Part shown: positions 3,425 through 44,300 of the stretch, piece after piece
Layout: every line of letters starts with the position of its first letter
Position numbering within the stretch: the first letter of the stretch is position 1
Assembly: GCF_947631635.1 (NCBI RefSeq)
Contig: NZ_CANRMB010000001.1
Span: 186,001-250,000 of the forward strand
DNA: 64,000 bases
Direction of reading: 5' to 3'
Origin: an uncultured Dysosmobacter sp.
Lineage (GTDB): Bacteria > Bacillota > Clostridia > Oscillospirales > Oscillospiraceae
Made by a program: the position numbers and the translations under genes
The notes under the pieces: generated by a model
The model's database searches: none
Told to the model about the DNA's origin: nothing
Seen by the model: the letters and a program-made list of their open reading frames with translations, nothing else

Positions 3425-3702
3425 AAAATAAAAAGCCCTATCCCAAAATTGGGACAAGACTTCGGTCCTGCGGTACCACCCAAGTTGACGCATAGCGCCC
3501 GCTCATCTCACGGACTTCCATCCGTGCCGCCCTGATAACGGGTGCGGTCCCCGTCATATACTACTAAAGCCGAAAGCCCGTTCGCTCTGCCCTCACAAGT
3601 CCATTCGCCGGAAAGTTCTCTGCCGTGATCCCACCACCCACGGCTCTCTGAAAGGTAGCCTTGCCGGTTACTCCTCTTGCTCATCGGTTTTTGTTTGATT
3701 GC
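3425..3702 (-). promoter_or_regulatory. T-box leader, probable tRNA-Trp specificity
   Basis: On the minus strand the leader ends with the T-box core GGGTGGTACCGCAGGACCG (about 3462-3480). A 12-bp stem (AAGTCTTGTCCC / GGGATAGGGCTT) with loop AATTTT and a T-run then forms an intrinsic terminator. Upstream, Stem I features are visible: GAGTAAC (specifier-loop S-turn), a distal loop with GAGAGCCG...GGTGGGA, and the 3' strand CCGGCGAATGGACTTG. The triplet in the specifier position is TGG (3601-3603), the Trp codon. Uncharged tRNA-Trp would therefore permit read-through into the importer operon. The specifier call is by alignment by eye with the Asn T-box in this window. Confidence 0.88.
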
Positions 3703-29675: not shown

Positions 29676-30122
29676 TCAGTGCTCCGCAGTCCGGCTGCCG
29701 CCGCAGAGCAGGTGCAGCGCCTCCAGATAGCCCGGCAGGCCGTGGCCCCGGATGGTCCCCACACAGGCGGCGCGGATGTAGGACACATGCCGGAACTCCT
29801 CCCGGCTGTCCGGGTCGGAGACATGGACCTCCACGGTGGGGATGCCCACGGCCTTCACCGCGTCCAGCAGGGCCACGCTGGTGTGGGTATAGGCGGCGGG
29901 GTTGATGATGATGCCGTCCACCTTGTCAAAATAGGCCTGCTGGATGGCGTCCACCAGAGCGCCCTCATGGTTGGACTGGAAGAAGGAGACCTGGACGCCC
30001 AGGGAGTCGGCCTCCTGTTGGATCATGGCCTTCAAGTCCTCATAGGTGGCCTTGCCGTAGATCTCCGGCTGGCGGATGCCCAGCATGTTCATGTTAGGGC
30101 CGTTAAGTACCAGAATTTTCAC
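29676..30122 (-). CDS. aroQ: Type II 3-dehydroquinate dehydratase
   Basis: 148-residue type II dehydroquinase, which dehydrates 3-dehydroquinate to 3-dehydroshikimate (shikimate pathway step 3). The hallmarks are LNGPNMNMLGIRQPEIYG, FFQSNHEGALVDAIQQA, NPAAYTHTSVALLDA with the catalytic His, and PTVEVHVSD. Length is typical for the dodecameric enzyme. It is last in the operon and overlaps the aroE-aroK fusion by 20 bp. Confidence 0.96.
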   Translation of the reverse strand: MKILVLNGPNMNMLGIRQPEIYGKATYEDLKAMIQQEADSLGVQVSFFQSNHEGALVDAIQQAYFDKVDGIIINPAAYTHTSVALLDAVKAVGIPTVEVHVSDPDSREEFRHVSYIRAACVGTIRGHGLPGYLEALHLLCGGSRTAEH

Positions 30123-31347
30123 AAAAATCCCTCCAAATCATGGCGGCGGTCTCCGCGACGGTGCCGCGGTTCTCCACAGCGGTATCCCGGAAGCGGGCAT
30201 AGAGCGGCGCCCTCTCCGCCCACATGGCGGAGAGGTCCGCCCCCTGGGAGAGGGGCCGTCCCTCGGTAGGCAGGGCGTTCAGGTCCCGGATCAGATGGTA
30301 GATGCGGCCGTTTTGATGCAGCGGCCCGTAGTTCCGGGCGTCCTTCACCACGCCGCCGCCGGTGAGGATAATTTTGCCGGACAGCTTTCCGGCCTCCGCC
30401 GTCTCCTCCCGCTCCAGGGCCCGGAAGGAGGTCTCGCCGCCCTGGGCAAAGATCTGGGGGATGGAGCACCCGGCCCGGGATACGATGCGCGCGTCGATGT
30501 CGATAGCCTCCCGGCCGGTGAGGGCCGCCAGAGCCTGGCCCACCGTGGTCTTGCCGCAGCCGGGCATACCGATCAGGACGATGTTGGCGGAGTCCCGCCG
30601 GAGCATGGACAGGATGCGCGCATTCTCGCTGTCTGGAATGGACCGGTCAAAGAAGTGCTCCTCCGCCGCCTTGGCCTGGGCCACCAGCATGGGCAGTCCG
30701 TCGGAGCAGGGGATGCCCAGCGACTCTGCCTGCAGCAGCAGGGCGGTGCGCCGGGGATTGTAGATGACATCCAGAACGCCCTGACAGCGGGGGAATGCCG
30801 CCAGGTCCACCGGGGCGGCTCCGTTGTTGGGATACATCCCCACCGGGGTGGTGTTCACCACGATCTCCGCGTCGGCGTGGCGCTCCAGATTGCCGTAGTT
30901 GTTCTCGCCGGAGCGGGAGATTACCACGACCTCCCTCGCCCCCAGGCGGCGGGCCATGGCCTGGGCTGTCAGGGACGCGCCGCCGCTGCCCAGAATGACC
31001 ACCTTGCGGCCAGAGAGTTCGACACCCGCCCGCCGGGCCATCCAGCAGAAACCGGCGGCGTCCGTGTTCCAGGCATAGAGCTTTCCGTCGGCCCGGCGGG
31101 CCAGGGTGTTGACGCTGCCGATGGCCTGGGCGGCCTCATCGATCACATCACAATAGGGCATCACATCCCGCTTGTAGGGGATGGTGACATTCAATCCGCC
31201 GATATCCTGCCGGGCCAGAAAGGGCCCCAGCTGCTCCGGCTCCAGTTCGATCAGCCGGTAGCCGCCGCAGCCCAGCGCGGCGTGGATGGGAACAGACCAG
31301 CTGTGGCCCAGCTTTCGGCCCAGCAGGCCGTACACCTTCTCCGCCAT
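30103..31347 (-). CDS. aroEK: Fused shikimate dehydrogenase - shikimate kinase
   Basis: 414-residue bifunctional protein. Residues 1 to about 245 are shikimate dehydrogenase: KLGHSWSVPIHAAL, LNVTIPYKRDV with catalytic Lys59, NTDAAGF with Asp96, and a Rossmann GSGGAS at 120-125. Residues from about 250 to 414 are shikimate kinase with the P-loop GMPGCGKT at 260-267, DIDARI and the GGGVV motif. No stop or ribosome site separates the halves, so this is one protein catalysing steps 4 and 5 of the pathway. It lies between pheA and aroQ. Separate aroE and aroK genes are commoner in bacteria. Confidence 0.95.
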   Translation of the reverse strand: MAEKVYGLLGRKLGHSWSVPIHAALGCGGYRLIELEPEQLGPFLARQDIGGLNVTIPYKRDVMPYCDVIDEAAQAIGSVNTLARRADGKLYAWNTDAAGFCWMARRAGVELSGRKVVILGSGGASLTAQAMARRLGAREVVVISRSGENNYGNLERHADAEIVVNTTPVGMYPNNGAAPVDLAAFPRCQGVLDVIYNPRRTALLLQAESLGIPCSDGLPMLVAQAKAAEEHFFDRSIPDSENARILSMLRRDSANIVLIGMPGCGKTTVGQALAALTGREAIDIDARIVSRAGCSIPQIFAQGGETSFRALEREETAEAGKLSGKIILTGGGVVKDARNYGPLHQNGRIYHLIRDLNALPTEGRPLSQGADLSAMWAERAPLYARFRDTAVENRGTVAETAAMIWRDFCENSGT

Positions 31348-31350
31348 GGG

Positions 31351-32487
31351 TCAGATCTCGGCGTAGTTGCCCAGGAACTGGAACTGGGCGCAGCTGCGCT
31401 CCATCTCCTCCAGCATGGCCAGCACGCTGGGGTCCTGCACGGAGGCGTCCAGCTCCAGAAAGAAAATGAACTCAAAGTCGCTGCCGGCCACGGGGCAGGA
31501 TTCCAGCTTCGTCAGGTTGATATCCAGCGCCGCCAGCTTGGAGAGCAGCTCATACAGGGCGCCGGGGCGGTTCTCAAAGGCGATGATGAGGCTGATGCGG
31601 TTGGCGCCGGCGTAGATGGCCGGGTCCTTGGTGACACAGATGAAGCGGGTGTAGTTGTTGTCGCTGTTCTGGATGTGGTCGTCGATGCACTCCAGGCCGT
31701 ACAGCGCCGCACAGGGATGGGAGGAAATGGCGGCGGCGTGGCGGTTGCCGCTCTCCGCCACCATCTTGGCGGCCACGGCGGTGTTGTCGCAGGGGATGAC
31801 CCGGATGCCGGTCAGGCCGTTGAGGAACTTGCTGCACTGGCCGATGGCCTGCTCGTGGGAGTAGATCTCTGTGATGTCGGACATCTTTACACCGGGCAGC
31901 GCCAGCAGCTCGTGGCGAATGCACAGGCGGGTGGAGCGGACGATGGAGAGGTTGTGCTCCTGCAGCAGCTCATACACCGCGCGGACGGAGCCGTTGGAGC
32001 TGTTCTCAATGGGCAGCACGCCGAATTTGCAGAAGCCGGACTCCACGGCGGAGACCACGGCCTCGAAGGTCTTGACATAGACCACGTTGCCCCGGGGCAG
32101 CAGCCGGTCGCAGGCCACCTGGGAGTTGGCGCCCTCCACGCCCTGGCAGGCCACCAGGCCGGTCTGGGGGAAGATCTCGCTGCCGGCGGCAAGGGAGGCC
32201 TTCACCTTGGCCGCGACCTTGGTGGGGGAGGCGATCAGCTCCGCCTGGCGGGAGCGGGCCAGCTCGAACAGGGTGGAGAAGAGGTGATAGGCATAGCGCT
32301 CCTTTTCACCGGACCGCTCCGTGACCTTTGCCAGGACGGCGCGCTCCCGCTCCTTGTTCAGGATAGGCAGGTGGTGTTCATTTTTGTAGGCGGCCACGTC
32401 CTCCGCCAGGCTCATGCGCTCCAGGAACAGCTGTAAAAGCTGGTCGTCCACAGCGTCGATTTTTGTGCGGATCTCAGAAAGTTCCAT
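31351..32487 (-). CDS. pheA: Chorismate mutase / prephenate dehydratase (P-protein)
   Basis: 378-residue bifunctional enzyme of phenylalanine synthesis. It has an AroQ-type chorismate mutase (residues 1 to about 85, IRTKIDAVDDQLLQLFLERM), a prephenate dehydratase domain (about 105-285) with the TRF catalytic motif, and a C-terminal ACT domain (LIIAFENRPGALYELLSKL). Phe would feed back on the ACT domain. It overlaps aroC by 14 bp and precedes aroEK by 3 bp. Confidence 0.96.
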   Translation of the reverse strand: MELSEIRTKIDAVDDQLLQLFLERMSLAEDVAAYKNEHHLPILNKERERAVLAKVTERSGEKERYAYHLFSTLFELARSRQAELIASPTKVAAKVKASLAAGSEIFPQTGLVACQGVEGANSQVACDRLLPRGNVVYVKTFEAVVSAVESGFCKFGVLPIENSSNGSVRAVYELLQEHNLSIVRSTRLCIRHELLALPGVKMSDITEIYSHEQAIGQCSKFLNGLTGIRVIPCDNTAVAAKMVAESGNRHAAAISSHPCAALYGLECIDDHIQNSDNNYTRFICVTKDPAIYAGANRISLIIAFENRPGALYELLSKLAALDINLTKLESCPVAGSDFEFIFFLELDASVQDPSVLAMLEEMERSCAQFQFLGNYAEI

Positions 32488-33565
32488 GATTTCCCTCCAA
32501 TAATAGATCTAGTAAAACAACGGCGGTCACCGCCTCTATGACGGGGACTGCCCGATGGGCGATGCAGGGGTCGTGCCGGCCGTGGATGACCAGTTCAGCT
32601 GGCTCCATGGCCGACAGGCTGACCGTCCGCTGGGGACGGCTGATGGACGGCGTGGGCTTGATGGCCGCCCGCAGGGTGAGGGGCATCCCGGTGGTGATGC
32701 CGCCCAGAATGCCGCCGGAGCGGTTGGATGCGGTGACAATGGCCCCGTTTTCCACCGTGAACGGGTCGTTATTCTCCGAGCCGTGGAGCCGGGAGGAGCC
32801 GAAGCCCAGCCCGAATTCCACGCCCTTGACGGCGGGAACGCCGAAGAGCGCCGCCGCCAGCCGGTTTTCGATGCCGTCAAACATGGGATCGCCCAGCCCG
32901 GCGGGAAGGCCGGTGGCCGCGCACTCGATGATGCCGCCCACGGAGTCCTGGGCCTCCCGGGCCGCCAGGATCAGCGCCTGCATCCGCGCTCCCGCCTGGT
33001 CGTTCAGCACGGGAAAGGTCTTGGCGGCGACGGCATCAAACAGCTCTTTTGTGGGGCGCAGGGGAAAGGCATCGTCGTCCTCCGTGCCGACAGCCGCCAG
33101 ATGGGCTCCCACATAGACGCCCCGGCGGGCCAAGATCTGCTTGGCAATGCCGCCGGCGATGCACAGAGGGGCCGTCAGCCGCCCGGAGAAGTGCCCGCCG
33201 CCCCGCATATCCGCGTGGCCGCCCCACTTCACCTGGGCGGTGTAGTCCGCGTGGGAGGGGCGGGGGTGGTCCGCCAGATTTTGATAATCAGAGGAGTGCT
33301 GGTCGCCGTTCTCAATGATGGCGCACAGGGGAGAGCCGCAGGTGACGCCGTTTTCCAGGCCGGAGAGAAAGATGGGCATGTCCGCCTCCCGCCGGGCGGT
33401 GGAGAGGGGGCTTTTGCCGGGCTTCCGCCGGTCCAGAAAGGCGTTCAGCTCCTCCAGGTCGATGGGCTCCCCGGCGGGCAGGCCGTCCATATTCACGCCG
33501 ATGGCCCTGCCGTGGGACTGGCCGAACACGGACACCTTCAAAAGCTTTCCGAATTCAGAGGACAT
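32474..33565 (-). CDS. aroC: Chorismate synthase
   Basis: 363-residue FMN-dependent chorismate synthase, which converts EPSP to chorismate. The motifs are SVFGQSHGRAIGVNMDGLPAGE at the N-terminus, RGGGHFSGRLTAPLC and SGGILGGITTGMPL. The start is the ATG at 33565 with GGGAGG upstream; it overlaps aroA by 11 bp. Length is normal. Confidence 0.96.
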   Translation of the reverse strand: MSSEFGKLLKVSVFGQSHGRAIGVNMDGLPAGEPIDLEELNAFLDRRKPGKSPLSTARREADMPIFLSGLENGVTCGSPLCAIIENGDQHSSDYQNLADHPRPSHADYTAQVKWGGHADMRGGGHFSGRLTAPLCIAGGIAKQILARRGVYVGAHLAAVGTEDDDAFPLRPTKELFDAVAAKTFPVLNDQAGARMQALILAAREAQDSVGGIIECAATGLPAGLGDPMFDGIENRLAAALFGVPAVKGVEFGLGFGSSRLHGSENNDPFTVENGAIVTASNRSGGILGGITTGMPLTLRAAIKPTPSISRPQRTVSLSAMEPAELVIHGRHDPCIAHRAVPVIEAVTAVVLLDLLLEGNHGTF

Positions 33566-34889
33566 GGACCACACCTCCCAACTGTTTATAGTCCTCCCAG
33601 AAGCCGGGGTAGGATTTGTTCACCGCCTGGGCACCCAGGATGGCGGTGGGGCCTTTGCAGTAGGCGGCGGCAATGGCCGCCGCCATGACGATGCGGTGGT
33701 CGTTGGCCCCGTCCACCGTGCCGCCGGTCAGGGGACGGCCCCCGTGGACGATCAGTCCCGCGGGCTGCTCCACGGCTTTGCCGCCCAGCGCTTTCAGCAT
33801 GGCGGCGGTGGTCTTGAGCCGGTCGCTCTCCTTCAGCCGCAGTCGGGCGGCATTGGTGAAATGGCTTTTCCCCTTGGCAAAGGCCGCCGCCACCGCCAAA
33901 ATGGGCAGCAGGTCGGGAACCTCGGATACGTCGATCTCCGCCGGATAGAGCTGGGAGGGAGCGGAGAGAAAGAAGCTGCCGCTCCCGCGGACGTCGGCGC
34001 GGAATTTCCGCAGGAGGGGGACAATGGCCTTGTCCCCCTGGGGAGAGGCATCGTCGGCATACAGAAGCGCGACGTGGTGGCCGCGGACCTTGCCCAGAGC
34101 GCCCGCTGTCAGGAAAAAGGCGGCGTTGGACCAGTCCCCATCCGCCCGGCACCGCTCTCCGGCGTGGAAGGCCTGCTTTCCGGGGATGGCCCATCCGGTG
34201 CCGGTGGGCCTGACAGAGATGCCGAACCGGCGCAGGGCGGCCAGCGTGATATCCACATAGGCGGCGGATTCCAGCTTGGTGGTGAGGGTCAGCGTGCTGT
34301 CCTCCGCGGCATTGGGCAGGGCCAGCAGCAGGCCGGTGATATACTGGGAGCTGATATTGCCCGGCAGAGCATAGTCCCCGCCGGTGAGCTTCCCATGGGT
34401 CTCAAAGGGCAGCTTTTCCGCGGAGAAGGAGACCCCATGGGCCGTCATCGCGGACATCAGGTCCCCGATGGGGCGCTCCGGCAGGCGGCCGCTGCCGGTA
34501 AACCGGACATGGCCGCAGAGCGCCGCGGCCACCGGGAGCAGGAAGCGGAAGGTGGAGCCGGATTCCCCGCAGTCCAGCAGGGGATCCTTCGGGACCTCCT
34601 GGATGGGGGTGACAAAAATGGAGGCGCCCGGATGATGGACCTGGGGGTCCTCTACGTCAGAGGGACCCGCGGAGGGACCCAGCCGAAAGGAGGCCCCCAG
34701 CGCCGTCAGGCAGGCCATAGTGGCCTCGATATCCGCGGAGACCCGGACATGGGGGATCTCTGACAGGATCAGCTCTGTGGGGCGGTCCGCCAGCGCCGCG
34801 CAGATCAGCTTGCGGTGCACATCGGATTTGGAGGGAATGGCGGCAGCAGAGCCGTCCAGGTATTTCACAGGTTCGATCAGAACGTCCAT
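33555..34889 (-). CDS. aroA: 5-enolpyruvylshikimate-3-phosphate synthase
   Basis: 444-residue EPSP synthase. Visible are IPSKSDVHRKLICAALAD near the N-terminus (catalytic Lys), CGESGSTFRFLLPVAA in the PEP/glyphosate-site position, SSQYITGLLLALP, and RLRLKESDRLKTTAAML near the C-terminus. It catalyses step 6 of the pathway. It starts 1 bp after the aroB stop. Confidence 0.96.
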   Translation of the reverse strand: MDVLIEPVKYLDGSAAAIPSKSDVHRKLICAALADRPTELILSEIPHVRVSADIEATMACLTALGASFRLGPSAGPSDVEDPQVHHPGASIFVTPIQEVPKDPLLDCGESGSTFRFLLPVAAALCGHVRFTGSGRLPERPIGDLMSAMTAHGVSFSAEKLPFETHGKLTGGDYALPGNISSQYITGLLLALPNAAEDSTLTLTTKLESAAYVDITLAALRRFGISVRPTGTGWAIPGKQAFHAGERCRADGDWSNAAFFLTAGALGKVRGHHVALLYADDASPQGDKAIVPLLRKFRADVRGSGSFFLSAPSQLYPAEIDVSEVPDLLPILAVAAAFAKGKSHFTNAARLRLKESDRLKTTAAMLKALGGKAVEQPAGLIVHGGRPLTGGTVDGANDHRIVMAAAIAAAYCKGPTAILGAQAVNKSYPGFWEDYKQLGGVVHVL

Positions 34890-34890
34890 C

Positions 34891-35961
34891 TCAGCCCTCC
34901 AGTCCCGCCGCGATCACGGGCAGCAGCTCCGAGACCGGCATCTTTTTCAGCGTACACGCGCCCATGCGCCTGGGTATGACCAAAGTGATATCCCCGCCGG
35001 TCCGCTTTTTGTCAGCGGAGGCGGCGTGGGCCAGGACCTCTGCGGGGTATTCCGTTCCGGTGGGAAGGCCGTTTTTGGCAAGGCAGGCGGCAATGCGGTC
35101 CGCAATGGGGGACTCCGTCCACCCCAGCTTTTCCGCGGACCGGGCAATGACGGCAAGGCCCGCCGCCACGGCGTGGCCGTGGGGGATGGCATAGCCGCTG
35201 CATTTCTCAATGGCGTGGCCCACGGTGTGGCCCAGGTTCAAAAGGCGGCGCTCATTCTGCTCCTTTTCATCCCGCTCCACGACACCTGCTTTGTAGGCCA
35301 CGCACCGGGCGATGACCTCCCCAGGGGCGGCGGTCAGGGTGCCGTCCTCGAACAGGGAAAACAGCCCCTCGTCGCTTAAAACGCCGGTCTTGATGGCCTC
35401 GGCAGCGCCATCGGCAAAGACGTCGGGGGGCAGGGAGCGGAGACAGTCTGTGTCGCACAGAACGGCGGCGGGCTGCAAAAAGGCTCCGGCCAGGTTTTTG
35501 CCCGCTTTCAGATCAATGGCGGTCTTGCCGCCCACGGAGGAGTCCACGGCGGACAGCAGTGTGGTGGGCAGCTGGACACAGCGGATGCCCCGGAGATACA
35601 CGGCGGCGGCAAAGCCCGCCATGTCGCCGGTGACGCCGCCGCCCAGAGCGACCACGCAGTCTGTGCGGGTCAGGCGCTCCTCCGCCAGAAATTCCAGGAT
35701 GCCGGAGAGGGTGTCAAAGTTTTTACGGGCCTCTCCCGTGGGAAAGACATAGGAGCTGACGGCAAATCCGGCCGTTTGCAGACTGCCGGTCACCACGCCC
35801 AGATACAGGGGGGCCACGGTGCTGTCGGTGATGACCGCCACATGGCAGGTCCCCAGAACGTCCCGCAGGCGCTGCCCGCAGATGCGCAGCAGGCCGGGAC
35901 CGATGGAGACCGTATAGGCGGGAGAGGTGCAGACCTGGATGGTTTGAATGGAGTCCGACAT
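34891..35961 (-). CDS. aroB: 3-dehydroquinate synthase
   Basis: 356-residue NAD- and metal-dependent dehydroquinate synthase. The motifs are VALGGGVTGDMAGFAAAVYLRG, QLPTTLLSAVDSSVGGKTAID and NLGHTVGHAIE with the metal-binding His. It catalyses step 2 of the pathway. It is third in the operon and separated from tyrA by 46 bp. Confidence 0.96.
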   Translation of the reverse strand: MSDSIQTIQVCTSPAYTVSIGPGLLRICGQRLRDVLGTCHVAVITDSTVAPLYLGVVTGSLQTAGFAVSSYVFPTGEARKNFDTLSGILEFLAEERLTRTDCVVALGGGVTGDMAGFAAAVYLRGIRCVQLPTTLLSAVDSSVGGKTAIDLKAGKNLAGAFLQPAAVLCDTDCLRSLPPDVFADGAAEAIKTGVLSDEGLFSLFEDGTLTAAPGEVIARCVAYKAGVVERDEKEQNERRLLNLGHTVGHAIEKCSGYAIPHGHAVAAGLAVIARSAEKLGWTESPIADRIAACLAKNGLPTGTEYPAEVLAHAASADKKRTGGDITLVIPRRMGACTLKKMPVSELLPVIAAGLEG

Positions 35962-36007: not shown

Positions 36008-36844
36008 TCAATGGCCGCCGGCGGAGGCCTTCTTCTCCCGGCCGTCCCTGAGCAGGGCCCGCAGCTTTTCCGCGTCCTTGGCTTTCAGGGCCTCCTGGTA
36101 TTCCGACAGGTGGCGGATGATCTCCTCCAGCTCGCAGGTCAGATAGTCCGCGTCGTCCAGAAACAGCTCCGTCCACATGTCCTCGTCCAGGCGGGCCACA
36201 CGGGTCATGTCCTGGAAGCTGCCCGCGGAGAAGCCACGGCGGCGCTGGGCCTCCGGGGATTTGATGTAGGAGCTGGAGACGATGTGGGCCAGCTGGGAGG
36301 TGAAGGCGATGATGCGGTCGTGCTCCTCCGGGTCGGAGAAGGTCAGCCCCGCAAAGCCGATGTCCAGGAAGAAATCCTTCAGGGTCTCCAGCAGCTGCAT
36401 ATCCGTCCGCTTGTCCGGCGTCAGGATCATGGAGGCCCCCACATACAGGCTGTCGGAGGCGGCGGTGAAGCCGCCCCGCTCCTTGCCCGCCATGGGGTGG
36501 CCGCCGATATAGGCGAAGCCGTACTGCTCGGCGATGGGGGCGATGGCCGCCACCACCGTCCGCTTCACGCCGCACAGGTCCACCAGAATGGCGGACTTGG
36601 CGATGCGCTCCGCGTGGCAGCGGACCCATTCGACGGCGGCGCCGGGACGGATCGCCACCAGGATCAGATCACATTGGGGCAGGTTGTCATCCGTCAGAGG
36701 CGCGTCGATGGCGCCGCACATCCGGGCCATGGTCATGGTCTCCGTGTCCAGGTCCGCGCCCCAGACCGTGTGGGCGGTGCGGGCTTTGATGCTCTTGGCC
36801 ATGGAGCCGCCGATGAGGCCCAGGCCGACGATACCGACATTCAT
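36008..36844 (-). CDS. tyrA: Prephenate dehydrogenase
   Basis: 278-residue NAD(P)-dependent dehydrogenase of tyrosine synthesis. An N-terminal Rossmann motif GLGLIGGSMAKSIK is followed by YIGGHPMAGKERGGF, which holds the catalytic His region, and a helical dimerisation domain. No ACT domain is fused at the C-terminus, so feedback would be weaker or act elsewhere. It lies 4 bp after aroF. Confidence 0.94.
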   Translation of the reverse strand: MNVGIVGLGLIGGSMAKSIKARTAHTVWGADLDTETMTMARMCGAIDAPLTDDNLPQCDLILVAIRPGAAVEWVRCHAERIAKSAILVDLCGVKRTVVAAIAPIAEQYGFAYIGGHPMAGKERGGFTAASDSLYVGASMILTPDKRTDMQLLETLKDFFLDIGFAGLTFSDPEEHDRIIAFTSQLAHIVSSSYIKSPEAQRRRGFSAGSFQDMTRVARLDEDMWTELFLDDADYLTCELEEIIRHLSEYQEALKAKDAEKLRALLRDGREKKASAGGH

Positions 36845-36848
36845 ACGA

Positions 36849-37862
36849 TCAATCCTCCAGAGTCTTCATCATCTCGTGGAGCTTCAGCAGCTTTTTGGCC
36901 AGGGGGTCGAACACCTCGGGCCGCAGGGACTGGGGACCGTCGCACAGGGCGCGGGCCGGGTCGTTGTGGACCTCGATCTGCAGACCGTCGGCGCCGGTGG
37001 CCACAGCGCCCATGGCCAGCGGCTCCACCAGCCAGCTCTTGCCGGTGGCGTGGCTGGGATCAATGATGATGGGCAGGTGGGTCAGCTTCCGCAGAACGGG
37101 GATGGCCGCCAGGTCCAGAGTGTTGCGGGTGTAGGACTCAAAGGTGCGGATGCCGCGCTCGCAGAGGATGACGTTCTCATTGCCGCCGGCCATGACATAT
37201 TCGGCGCTCATGAGCCACTCCTCATAGGTGGCGGACATGCCCCGCTTGATCATAACGGGCTTGTCCTGATGGCCCACGGCCTTCAAAAGGTCGAAGTTCT
37301 GCATGTTCCGGGCGCCGATCTGGATCACATCCACATCCTTGAACAGGGGCAGCTGGCTCAGGTCCATCAGCTCGGTGACGATGGGGAGGCCGGTCTCCTG
37401 CCGGGCGATCTTCAGGTACTCCAGGCCGGTGGCGCCCAGGCCCTGGAAGGAGTAGGGAGAGGTGCGGGGCTTGAAGGCGCCGCCCCGGAGCATGGTGGCG
37501 CCGCTGGCCTTGACGGCCTTGGCAATAGCCACCACCTGCTCCTCGGATTCCACAGAGCAGGGACCTGCCATGATGGTCAGATTGCCGCCGCCGATCTGGG
37601 TGCTGCCCACCTGGACGACGGTGTCCTCAGGATGGAATTTGCGGTTGGCGTTTTTATAGGGCTCCTGCACGCGCTTCACATCGTCAACGATATCCAGGGC
37701 GGCGATCAGGTCGATATCCAGCTTGGAGGTATCGCCCACCAGGCCCAGAATGGTATGGGCCTCGCCGATGCTGGTGTGGATGGTGATGCCCTTCTCCTGC
37801 AGCCAGGAGATCAGGTTTTCCAGCTGGTCACGGTTGGGATTGTGCTTCAAAATGACGATCAT
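36849..37862 (-). CDS. aroF: DAHP synthase with N-terminal regulatory domain (AroF / type I-beta)
   Basis: 337-residue 3-deoxy-D-arabino-heptulosonate-7-phosphate synthase, the committing step of aromatic synthesis. Residues 1 to about 65 form the ferredoxin-like regulatory domain (MIVILKHNPNRDQLENLISWL) seen in Thermotoga-type enzymes, which binds Phe or Tyr. The TIM-barrel follows with IMAGPCSVES, KPRTSPYSFQGLG and ERGIRTFESYTRNTLD. It is the first structural gene after the Phe/Tyr leader peptide and its terminator, which gives two levels of end-product control. The ribosome site is AAGGAGG. Confidence 0.96.
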   Translation of the reverse strand: MIVILKHNPNRDQLENLISWLQEKGITIHTSIGEAHTILGLVGDTSKLDIDLIAALDIVDDVKRVQEPYKNANRKFHPEDTVVQVGSTQIGGGNLTIMAGPCSVESEEQVVAIAKAVKASGATMLRGGAFKPRTSPYSFQGLGATGLEYLKIARQETGLPIVTELMDLSQLPLFKDVDVIQIGARNMQNFDLLKAVGHQDKPVMIKRGMSATYEEWLMSAEYVMAGGNENVILCERGIRTFESYTRNTLDLAAIPVLRKLTHLPIIIDPSHATGKSWLVEPLAMGAVATGADGLQIEVHNDPARALCDGPQSLRPEVFDPLAKKLLKLHEMMKTLED

Positions 37863-37889: not shown

Positions 37890-37960
37890 TCGTACAAAAA
37901 AACCCGCAGCCGGTTCGGCTGCGGGTCATGATGCACGGACAGTTTTTGACAAAACCGGCC
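37890..37960 (-). promoter_or_regulatory. Attenuator (terminator plus antiterminator) of the aro operon
   Basis: Minus strand terminator CCCGCAGCCG-AAC-CGGCTGCGGG (37903-37925) is followed by seven or more T. The upstream segment GCCGGTT (37953-37959), directly after the leader stop codon, is a perfect 7-bp complement of AACCGGC inside the terminator. It could form the competing antiterminator. A ribosome stalled on the Tyr/Phe codons would favour read-through. Confidence 0.9.
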
Positions 37961-38059
37961 TTACACCCGAGTGCTTTCAGCCAAACCGAAATAAGCCTTA
38001 CCATAAAAGTAGGTAAAGCTAAAGTAGCGGTATTCAGCTGCACGGGCGATGTTGGTCAT
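37961..38059 (-). CDS. Phe/Tyr-rich leader peptide of the aro operon (32 aa)
   Basis: 32-codon ORF beginning MTNIARAA and containing the segment EYRYFSFTYFYGKAYF. It has five Tyr and four Phe within 15 codons, all between residues 10 and 24. It has a ribosome site GAAAGGGA and starts about 22 nt downstream of the predicted transcription start. The stop codon abuts the antiterminator. This is a classic ribosome-mediated attenuation leader sensing charged tRNA-Tyr and tRNA-Phe, the two end products of this operon. It contains no Trp codon. Confidence 0.9.
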   Translation of the reverse strand: MTNIARAAEYRYFSFTYFYGKAYFGLAESTRV

Positions 38060-38083
38060 TGTCGTGGTCCCTTTCAGTCTCTT

Positions 38084-38112
38084 TAGATATTTAAAGCATA
38101 GCACCTTGACAA
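38084..38112 (-). promoter_or_regulatory. Promoter of the aro operon
   Basis: Minus strand TTGTCA (38107-38112), 17-bp spacer, TATCTA (38084-38089). Confidence 0.7.
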
Positions 38113-42380: not shown

Positions 42381-43961
42381 TTATTGGCCGCTGGCACCGT
42401 AGTTTGCCAAAACCCGGGCGGAGGGATCGTCCACATCGCAGCCCTCCCACGCTTTGTTGGGCATCCAGAAATCCTTGATCATCCTGGCCTGGCCGGGGTA
42501 GTACTTCTCAAAGATCTCCCGGTACAGCAGGCTCTCCTTGGTGAAGGGCGTGCCGTAGTCGTATTTTTGGCGCAGAGTCTCAAACTCCTCGTCCGTGTAC
42601 TTCTCCTCGGCGTAGGCTTTCAGATCGTCCACCATGGAGTGGCCCACGGCGTCGGAGAAGGCGGCCTTCTGGCGCCACAGGATGTCCTCCGGCAGCAGGT
42701 GGTCCTTCTCGAAGGCGTGGCGCAGCAGGTATTTACCCATACCGTAGGTGTTCATCTTCAGCCTGGGGTCGATGCTCATGACGTATTTCACAAAATCCAG
42801 GTCGCCGAAGGGGACCCGGGCCTCCAGGGAGTTGACGGAGATGCAGCGGTCCGCCCGCAGCACGTCGTACATATACAGCTCATCGACGCGCTTCTTGGAC
42901 TCCTCCTGGAAGGCCTGGGCGCTGGGGGCAAAGTCGGTGTACTTGTAGCCAAACAACTCGTCACTGATCTCGCCGGTCAGCAGCACCCGGATGTCGGTCT
43001 GCTCGTGGATGGCCTTGCAGCACAGGTACATGCCCATGCTGGCCCGGATGGTGGTGATGTCCCAGGTGCCCAGCATGGCGATGACCTCCTCCAGGGAGTC
43101 CAGCACCTGCTGGCGGGTCATATAGACCTCCGTGTGGTCGGCGCCGATGTAGTCGGCCACCTCCCGGGCGTATTTCAGGTCAATGGCGTCCTGATCCATG
43201 CCGATGGCGAAGGTGCGGATCTTCTTGCCCAGCACGACGGCGGAGATGGCGCACACCAGAGAGGAATCCAGGCCGCCGGAGAGCAGGAAGCCCAAGGGGG
43301 CGTCGGCGTCCAGCCGCTTGTCCACGCCGGCGATCAGCTTATCGCGGATGTGCTTACAGGCGGTCTCCAAATCGTCCTGGGAGTACTCCTTGACAGTGGT
43401 CAGGTCGGCGTAGCGGACGAACTTGCCGAAGGCGTAATAGTGGCCGGGAGGGAAGGGGCACACCTCGTCGCACAGGCCCACCAGGTTTTTGGCCTCGCTG
43501 GCGAACATGATGGCGCCGTCTTTGTCGTAGCCGTAGAACAGGGGACGGATGCCGATGGGATCCCGGGCCGCGATGAGGGAGTCGGTGATGGAGTCGTAGA
43601 TAATAAGGGCGAATTCGGCGTCCAGTCGGGAGAACATGGACAGGCCGTATTCCTGAAACAGGGGGAGCAGGATCTCGCAGTCGCTGCCGCTATGGAACTC
43701 AAACTTTTCAGACAACTGCCGTTTCAGGGGGCGGAAGCCGTAGATCTCGCCGTTGCACACCACATAGTCGCCGCCCAGGTGGAAGGGCTGCATACCGGCC
43801 TCCGTCAGGCCCATGATGGCCAGACGGTGGAAGCAGAGGTAGCCGGACGGGGTCTCCACGATGCGGGACATATCGGGGCCGCGGGAAATGGTGCGGTCAA
43901 AGTAGGGCTTCAGTTCTTCCTTGGTATAGGTTTTTTTGGAAAATCCCATGATCGAGCACAT
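42381..43961 (-). CDS. asnB: Asparagine synthetase (glutamine-hydrolysing)
   Basis: 526-residue AsnB. The Met is followed directly by Cys2, the glutaminase nucleophile (MCSIMGF), so the start is the ATG at 43961 with GGAGGTG upstream, not the earlier in-frame Met. The class II amidotransferase domain includes HRLAIMGLTEAG and VVCNGEIYG. The synthetase domain has the pyrophosphatase loop LLSGGLDSSLV. It is controlled by an Asn-specific T-box. It converts Asp, Gln and ATP to Asn. Confidence 0.97.
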   Translation of the reverse strand: MCSIMGFSKKTYTKEELKPYFDRTISRGPDMSRIVETPSGYLCFHRLAIMGLTEAGMQPFHLGGDYVVCNGEIYGFRPLKRQLSEKFEFHSGSDCEILLPLFQEYGLSMFSRLDAEFALIIYDSITDSLIAARDPIGIRPLFYGYDKDGAIMFASEAKNLVGLCDEVCPFPPGHYYAFGKFVRYADLTTVKEYSQDDLETACKHIRDKLIAGVDKRLDADAPLGFLLSGGLDSSLVCAISAVVLGKKIRTFAIGMDQDAIDLKYAREVADYIGADHTEVYMTRQQVLDSLEEVIAMLGTWDITTIRASMGMYLCCKAIHEQTDIRVLLTGEISDELFGYKYTDFAPSAQAFQEESKKRVDELYMYDVLRADRCISVNSLEARVPFGDLDFVKYVMSIDPRLKMNTYGMGKYLLRHAFEKDHLLPEDILWRQKAAFSDAVGHSMVDDLKAYAEEKYTDEEFETLRQKYDYGTPFTKESLLYREIFEKYYPGQARMIKDFWMPNKAWEGCDVDDPSARVLANYGASGQ

Positions 43962-43998
43962 AAAAAGCACCTCCGGAAATTCATGCCCCGGCCCTTTG

Positions 43999-44300
43999 GC
44001 CGGACGGCAATAAAAAACGCAGCTACATCCTAAATTTTAGGACGAATAGCTGCTATCCGCGGTGCCACCTAATTTACCTCCCCTTTGACGGGGACGGTCA
44101 CCTTCAAGGCTCCAACAAGCCCGTGTGATGTAACGATCACAACTCGTCGCACTTACTGGCGGTCGCCCGCGTTCAGATTGCAGCTACGGAGTGTTCTTCC
44201 CACAGACTCTTTGTTACGAGGTTTCCACTGTCCCCCGCTCACTGAAACGGAACTTCTGCGGTACTTTTCTCCATCAACGCCGTTGTCGATGTTTCAATTG
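43999..44300 (-). promoter_or_regulatory. T-box leader of asnB, tRNA-Asn specificity
   Basis: Minus strand T-box core AGGTGGCACCGCGGATAGC (about 44053-44072). The terminator stem GCAGCTATTCGTCCTA / TAGGATGTAGCTGC is followed by GTTTTTTATT. Stem I shows AGTACC, a distal GTGGAAAC loop and, in the specifier position, AAC (44193-44195) followed by AC. AAC is an Asn codon, which agrees with the gene controlled. It gives an internal check on how the Trp specifier at 3601-3603 was read. Confidence 0.92.

Follow-up and report, generated by a model that had tools for sequence, protein, structure and literature searches.

Comparative evidence for a predicted Phe/Tyr leader-peptide attenuator upstream of aroF in Oscillospiraceae and other Clostridia

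How is the shikimate-Phe-Tyr operon of an uncultured Dysosmobacter sp. controlled, and what part does the short Phe/Tyr-rich ORF in front of it play? We addressed this question in a 64,000-nucleotide stretch of DNA (NZ_CANRMB010000001.1, positions 186,001 to 250,000), called the window below, in whose numbering all coordinates are given. NCBIfam and Pfam profiles identified eight genes on the minus strand in the order aroF-tyrA-aroB-aroA-aroC-pheA-aroEK-aroQ. These are aroF, encoding DAHP synthase (36849..37862; NF006421, TIGR01361, PF18152); tyrA, prephenate dehydrogenase (36008..36844; PF02153, PF20463); aroB (34891..35961; TIGR01357), aroA (33555..34889; TIGR01356), and aroC (32474..33574; TIGR00033), all three over cut-off; pheA, chorismate mutase-prephenate dehydratase (31351..32487; PF01817, PF00800); an aroE-aroK fusion (30103..31347; PF08501, PF01202); and aroQ, type II dehydroquinase (29676..30122; PF01220). 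The profile matches thus place both pheA and tyrA in the operon, as an initial annotation of this DNA had claimed. Judging from the gene spacing, the eight genes probably form a single transcript. On the other side of the leader, 5' of it, a minus-strand ORF at 38184-39167 matches a zinc-dependent phospholipase C (PF00882).

The leader itself is a predicted ORF of 32 codons plus stop (MTNIARAAEYRYFSFTYFYGKAYFGLAESTRV; 37961..38059, minus strand), with its ATG at 38059 and its stop at 37961, 98 nt before aroF; a short ORF is conserved here in relatives. Nine of its codons 10-24 (37988..38032, minus strand) specify Phe or Tyr. Re-reading the ORF upheld the original count of nine Tyr/Phe codons in 15, and among all 572 ATG-initiated ORFs of 6-60 codons, taken from either strand of the window, this is the densest such cluster, the runner-up having six. 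We assigned a putative extended -10 promoter element (TGCTATGCT; 38095..38103, minus strand) by consensus match, and the pattern TRnTAnnnT sits 30-55 nt 5' of the leader ATG in 22 of the 23 close loci. A scan for sigma-70 promoter pairs found none. The ribosome site described in the initial annotation holds for the relatives, since the remaining 22 of the 23 close loci match AGGAGG at at least 4 of 6 positions, but the window's own site, a Shine-Dalgarno-like AAAGGGA at 38068..38074 (minus strand) identified by sequence reading, is weak (3 of 6 at best). On folding, the RNA of 37890-38100 was more stable than all 200 shuffled versions (z -4.97).

We then asked how widely such an ORF precedes aroF. 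Our sample combined the best 80 loci from named contigs, 29 others among the matches listed in a search of 300 genomes of the family, 57 further places from the same list, mostly one per genus, and the window's own locus, making 167; two loci (L098 and L159) were dropped for having less than 350 nt upstream, leaving 165 regions. A leader was scored as a short ORF starting with ATG within 350 nt of aroF and holding at least six Phe/Tyr in 12 codons. Such an ORF was present in 132 of the 165 regions and absent from 33; the opposite strand of these 165 gave 1, and shuffles gave 23 of 3,300, so that the conserved Tyr/Phe short ORF that the initial annotation proposed to look for in relatives was indeed found. 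Two loci occur in both collections (L022/L100 and L034/L116), and without duplicates the count is 131 of 163 distinct regions. When all amino acid pairs were compared across the 165 regions, Phe plus Tyr ranked first with 132, followed by Ala plus Phe with 65. Outside the family, in a sample of 28 loci and 40 chosen places across the same class, less one dropped for a short upstream region, the leader was found in 34 of 67 regions, representing 25 of 41 families; the reverse strand gave 2 and shuffles would be expected to give about 1.3. Both samples together yield leader ORFs in 166 of 233 regions, with no such ORF in the other 67.

The peptide changes with distance. Close relatives have the motif SFTYF..GKAYFGLAE in common, distant leaders retain the Phe/Tyr cluster alone, and the leaders of L091, L093, and L095 stop at GKV or GKA. 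Among named genomes, that of Oscillibacter valericigenes Sjm18-20 (L010) has the leader. Some leader-bearing named loci are labelled Lentisphaerae, Treponema, Thermoguttaceae, or Kiritimatiellae, these labels being those of metagenome bins. Five further aroF leaders (L150, L157, L161, L162, and L167) carry an (F/Y)GWARF motif and fall below the Phe/Tyr threshold. Their genomes have no trpE match, and the Trp in these leaders may therefore serve RNA pairing.

A terminator follows the leader 3' in 126 of 166 cases, compared with 8 of 830 shuffles, although the finder misses some plain terminators, such as that of L082. In 83 of those 126 leaders, a strand complementary to the 5' arm of the terminator ranks among the top 2 of 61. 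In the window, the intrinsic terminator with its U tract lies at 37896..37927 (minus strand), and the earlier call was correct: the stem (37927-37901) has 12 bp, 9 of them GC, and is followed by 7 T. Its 5' arm includes segment 3 (37911..37921, minus strand), which covariation and folds show to be common to the terminator (helix 3:4) and to an antiterminator (helix 2:3). The partner strand of the latter, segment 2 (CGGTTTGGCTG; 37978..37988, minus strand), lies inside the ORF as codons 24-28 and was recognized by covariation; it forms 11 bp, 37988-37978 with 37921-37911. Since both helices use the segment 3 arm, they are mutually exclusive.

We compared these helices in an alignment of 40 leaders, composed of the 23 closest and 17 chosen for a recognisable GKA-like region; leaders with such a region that were left out include L091, L093, L095, L105, and L107. 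For helix 2:3, 90.7% of cells were paired and six pairs had changed on both sides. Cells changed on both sides numbered 39, against 11.8 in shuffled alignments (none of 500 shuffles reached 39) and at most 7 in a slid control. Coarser measures, counting covarying pairs or pair types, did not stand out clearly from shuffles, 60 and 61 of the 500 reaching them, respectively. For terminator 3:4, 96.5% of cells were paired, eight pairs had changed on both sides, and the cells so changed numbered 61, against 15.9 in shuffles. Both stems therefore covary across the 40 leaders, as the initial annotation had suggested checking. Duplexes of segments 2 and 3 from the same locus averaged -17.2 kcal/mol, compared with -12.4 kcal/mol when partners were swapped between loci, though several close loci pair equally well or better with a foreign segment 3 (for example, L084, in 24 of 39 swaps).

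The antiterminator had originally been placed directly after the leader stop. The 7-bp complement on which that placement was based (GCCGGTT/AACCGGC) does exist in the window and pairs with the terminator at -16.3 kcal/mol, but the conserved partner is the helix inside the ORF. As an antiterminator, the post-stop strand was better than helix 2:3 in none of the 40 loci (mean, -9.0 versus -17.2 kcal/mol), and we rejected it. Folds place the complement within a hairpin between segments 2 and 3, with approximate limits 37931..37966 (minus strand).

A further hairpin forms within the ORF from a 5' arm (AGCUUUACC; 38012..38020, minus strand), comprising codons S-F-T, and a 3' arm (GGUAAGGCU; 37994..38002, minus strand), comprising codons G-K-A, both defined by pairing in the alignment. 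Pairing holds in 96.1% of cells, and the sequence hardly varies across the 40 leaders, so that covariation carries little information. Codon choice can be examined instead, and we did so in the 28 of 40 leaders that have exactly SFT...GKA. AGC, TTT, ACC, and GGT were used in 28 of 28, and AAG and GCT in 27 of 28. Outside the hairpin, the same leaders encode Phe by TTT 83 times and TTC 39 times, and codons for Thr, Gly, Lys, and Ala also vary. Codons that are frozen in the hairpin and variable for the same residues elsewhere indicate that the RNA, and not the peptide, is selected there. This internal hairpin would correspond to the pause and 1:2 hairpin. In the window's minimum-energy fold, segment 2 is paired with segment 1 (38028..38041, minus strand). 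Across the 40 loci, its duplex with segment 2 averaged -10.3 kcal/mol for own partners and -8.6 kcal/mol for swapped ones; an RNAalifold consensus contains only its CCG/CGG core, and pairing is poor in L104, L106, L109, L110, and L112 (-2.7 to -5.9 kcal/mol). Segment 1 pairing, which these comparisons suggest weakly, is the weak point of the attenuator scheme.

Taken together, the recurring ORF and the covarying, exclusive helices support the initial reading of this leader as a site of ribosome-mediated attenuation: by comparison of sequences, it is very probably a classical transcription attenuator that senses charged tRNA-Phe and tRNA-Tyr. In this mechanism, RNA polymerase would be followed by a ribosome translating the leader. 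A shortage of charged tRNA-Phe or tRNA-Tyr would stall this ribosome within codons 10-19, where it would mask segment 1, melt the internal hairpin, and free segment 2, which could then pair with the emerging segment 3, so that no terminator forms and the aroF-aroQ operon is transcribed. With Phe and Tyr plentiful, the ribosome would pass segment 2, helix 3:4 would form, and transcription would stop. Without translation, the 1:2 hairpin would hold segment 2, with the same outcome. Stalling, coupling of ribosome and polymerase, Phe/Tyr-dependent read-through, and the order of folding are all presumed in this scheme.

Folds of the window with a ribosome in place, assuming a footprint of +12 nt from the A site, are consistent with such a switch. 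With the A site at codon 9, 11, 12, 14, 16, 17, or 18, RNA extending to segment 3 folds into helix 2:3; four of the pairs of this helix persist with the A site at codon 22, and none at codon 23. Codons 23-24 are Tyr-Phe, and a stall there is predicted to mask segment 2. Full-length folds of the window all contain the terminator at minimum energy, whether or not a ribosome is stalled, and the antiterminator must therefore win by forming first.

Could the leader peptide itself, rather than the speed of its translation, be the signal? In TnaC, the nascent peptide arrests the ribosome with free Trp bound to it, and the shared SFTYF..GKAYFGLAE motif might likewise reflect a peptide that stops the ribosome, possibly a ribosome to which free Phe or Tyr has bound. 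The motif is, however, kept at the codon level where the hairpin forms, three leaders end at GKV or GKA, and distant leaders preserve only the Phe/Tyr cluster, so we regard nascent-peptide arrest as highly improbable. The ORF might also matter less than the RNA around it. A terminator acting constitutively could trim expression or release a small RNA, with leader translation aiding initiation downstream; leader genes may raise translation through reinitiation, according to the portion of one study available to us (PMC4833913). Yet such a terminator does not account for a covarying 2:3 helix that excludes it, and the 98-nt gap separates the leader stop from aroF, leaving this explanation with very slight odds, slighter than those of peptide arrest.

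We gave equally little credence to a choice between helices 2:3 and 3:4 made by a TRAP-like protein or other trans-acting factor, or by a T-box or riboswitch aptamer, with the ORF incidental. Binding of tRNA can evidently control this locus: T-boxes, which bind tRNA directly and involve no leader peptide, occur at the same place, upstream of aroF and on the coding strand, in 8 (L232, L236, L241, L242, L243, L245, L246, and L249) of 60 scanned loci, most of the 60 being leaderless. Against such a factor, the window's leader scores below gathering for every Rfam family, and a factor of this kind would need no conserved start, ribosome site, or Phe/Tyr codons. At this leader, RF00230 (T-box) had no match, and a scan to E 10 returned 12 rows, all below gathering and none an amino acid leader-peptide family; the trpB motif RF04312 was rejected at 20.2 bits (gathering, 59). 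The short ORF beside the T-box in L242, one of the 34 outside-family leaders, is probably there by chance. The window contains two other T-boxes on the minus strand, at 3447-3693 and 44035-44286, the latter just upstream of an ORF (42381-43970) whose product may be an asparagine synthetase.

For the leader as a sensor of charged tRNA-Phe and tRNA-Tyr, Trp provides a check on the products. A search for trpE (TIGR00564) found no match in the window's genome (94% complete) or in 7 relatives, and matches in 11 of another 77 genomes of the family and in 13 of 33 genomes of the class. The window's leader has zero Trp codons. Since the genome lacks a trpE match and the leader lacks Trp, sensing of Phe and Tyr fits what is made. 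In a set of 103 leaders (two genomes counted twice), 11 have Trp in the cluster, and 7 of these come from genomes with a trpE match, compared with 16 of the other 92 (P = 0.002, ignoring kinship). We did not accept that Trp codons mark genomes that make Trp, as the association is confounded by kinship and gave P = 0.11 within the class sample only.

The logic of alternative 1:2, 2:3, and 3:4 helices is that of the enterobacterial pheA, pheST, and trp attenuators; here, Phe and Tyr would be sensed together for an entire pathway. T-box leaders (RF00230) also sense tRNA charging and precede the same gene in other families. The initial annotation held that Firmicutes usually control amino acid operons by T-boxes, TRAP, or riboswitches instead of leader peptides, a view that is dated, as far as the consulted parts of four papers show (PMC2965389, PMC9413887, PMC5794164, PMC6123439): in Firmicutes, such attenuation is already described for his genes and ilv (PMC2965389, PMC9413887, PMC5794164). 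In the parts consulted, the S. aureus ilv and his attenuators resemble the aroF leader in combining product codons, a terminator, and an alternative structure (PMC5794164, PMC2965389, PMC9413887), and mutants and a reporter are reported for ilv (PMC5794164). A leu/phe leader of Lactococcus is tabulated as an attenuator (PMC2864571). These Gram-positive attenuators differ from the aroF leader in having Leu/Ile, His, or Leu/Phe codons and in preceding other operons (PMC5794164, PMC2965389, PMC9413887, PMC2864571).

Phe/Tyr uORFs near shikimate genes were published in 2019 and 2021 (PMC6429828, PMC8632094). The closest, as described in the excerpt available, is the uORFC-13-1 motif upstream of aroF in Acholeplasma, with 24 representatives from Acholeplasma and environmental DNA and a proposal that it senses Phe by incorporation speed; like the window's leader, it is a short uORF followed by an intrinsic terminator (PMC8632094). 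Compared by description only, and within that excerpt, it differs in having at least one Phe codon, in that Tyr is not named as sensed, and in that no 2:3/3:4 scheme is given (PMC8632094). Two shikimate-linked uORF candidates from a set of five genomes, in Fig. 6b of the earlier paper, have Phe and Tyr codons, as here, a likeness again drawn from the description in that part of the source (PMC6429828). We found no report of a Clostridia-wide aroF leader or of its pairing scheme in the open-access literature searched. The mechanism appears ordinary, and comparison backs it strongly, in a place for which earlier work gave no more than hints; what is new is the extent of the leader, its anatomy, the exchange for T-boxes in some families, and, as leads, the Ile and Trp leaders below. 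With leader ORFs in 166 of 233 regions and T-boxes in 8 of 60 scanned, the usual picture of aromatic control in Clostridia shifts. The bacteria concerned make Phe and Tyr, yet are mostly without trpE in the sample examined.

To see whether similar leaders precede other operons, we built a covariance model of the core from 31 sequences. The window's genome contains one match to it, and 33 of 150 family genomes contain matches at E 0.01 with strict filters. Twelve matches seemingly away from aroF were examined; two (L267 and L269) are at contig ends, and ten could be assessed. Leaders precede tyrA-aroA-aroC in L258 and aroB in L262 and L265. An acyl-CoA ligase gene is preceded by a Tyr/Phe leader and a similar terminator in L259, L260, and L261, with iorA next in L259 and L261. 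In L263, a TrpB-like gene and a PaaK-like (phenylacetate-CoA ligase-like) gene follow a leader with Trp, Phe, and Tyr codons. The leader of L268 is an Ile leader and precedes a gene for an HTH-cupin acyl-CoA ligase, for which MbcS is the best NCBIfam model but scores below cut-off. L264 and L266 are weaker model matches without a convincing leader.

The ligase-associated leaders are not general. Among 31 distinct loci with acyl-CoA ligase homologues (32 rows, of which L261 and L290 denote a single place), only three (in G101, G018, and G104) have a leader. Likewise, an Ile leader, in which Ile takes up 10-11 of 12 codons, is found at just 3 of 30 loci, all in genus g25 (L300, which is the same place as L268; L301; and L302), and at 0 of the 27 others. 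A search for His leaders upstream of hisG at six loci was negative, with 4 His in 12 codons as the threshold for a short ORF. We regard the Ile-, Trp-, and ligase-associated leaders as leads. They might belong to a modular Clostridia attenuator, in which one hairpin logic is kept and the codons are swapped to suit each operon's product: Phe/Tyr for aroF, tyrA, aroB, and ligase-iorA, Trp/Phe/Tyr for the TrpB-like gene, and Ile for the MbcS-like gene. This proposal is tentative, and we hold it somewhat less probable than even. If it is true, leader codons would show which way poorly known pathways run and may label the amino acid made by an uncharacterised operon; the acyl-CoA ligase operons, for example, would not degrade aryl- or methylbutyrate acids but use them to make Phe/Tyr or Ile. 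Separately, two same-genus relatives each have, about 140 nt before an ilvB-type gene, an Ile/Leu/Val-rich short ORF followed by a terminator (L181, reverse complement 1216-1359; L182, 1214-1360).
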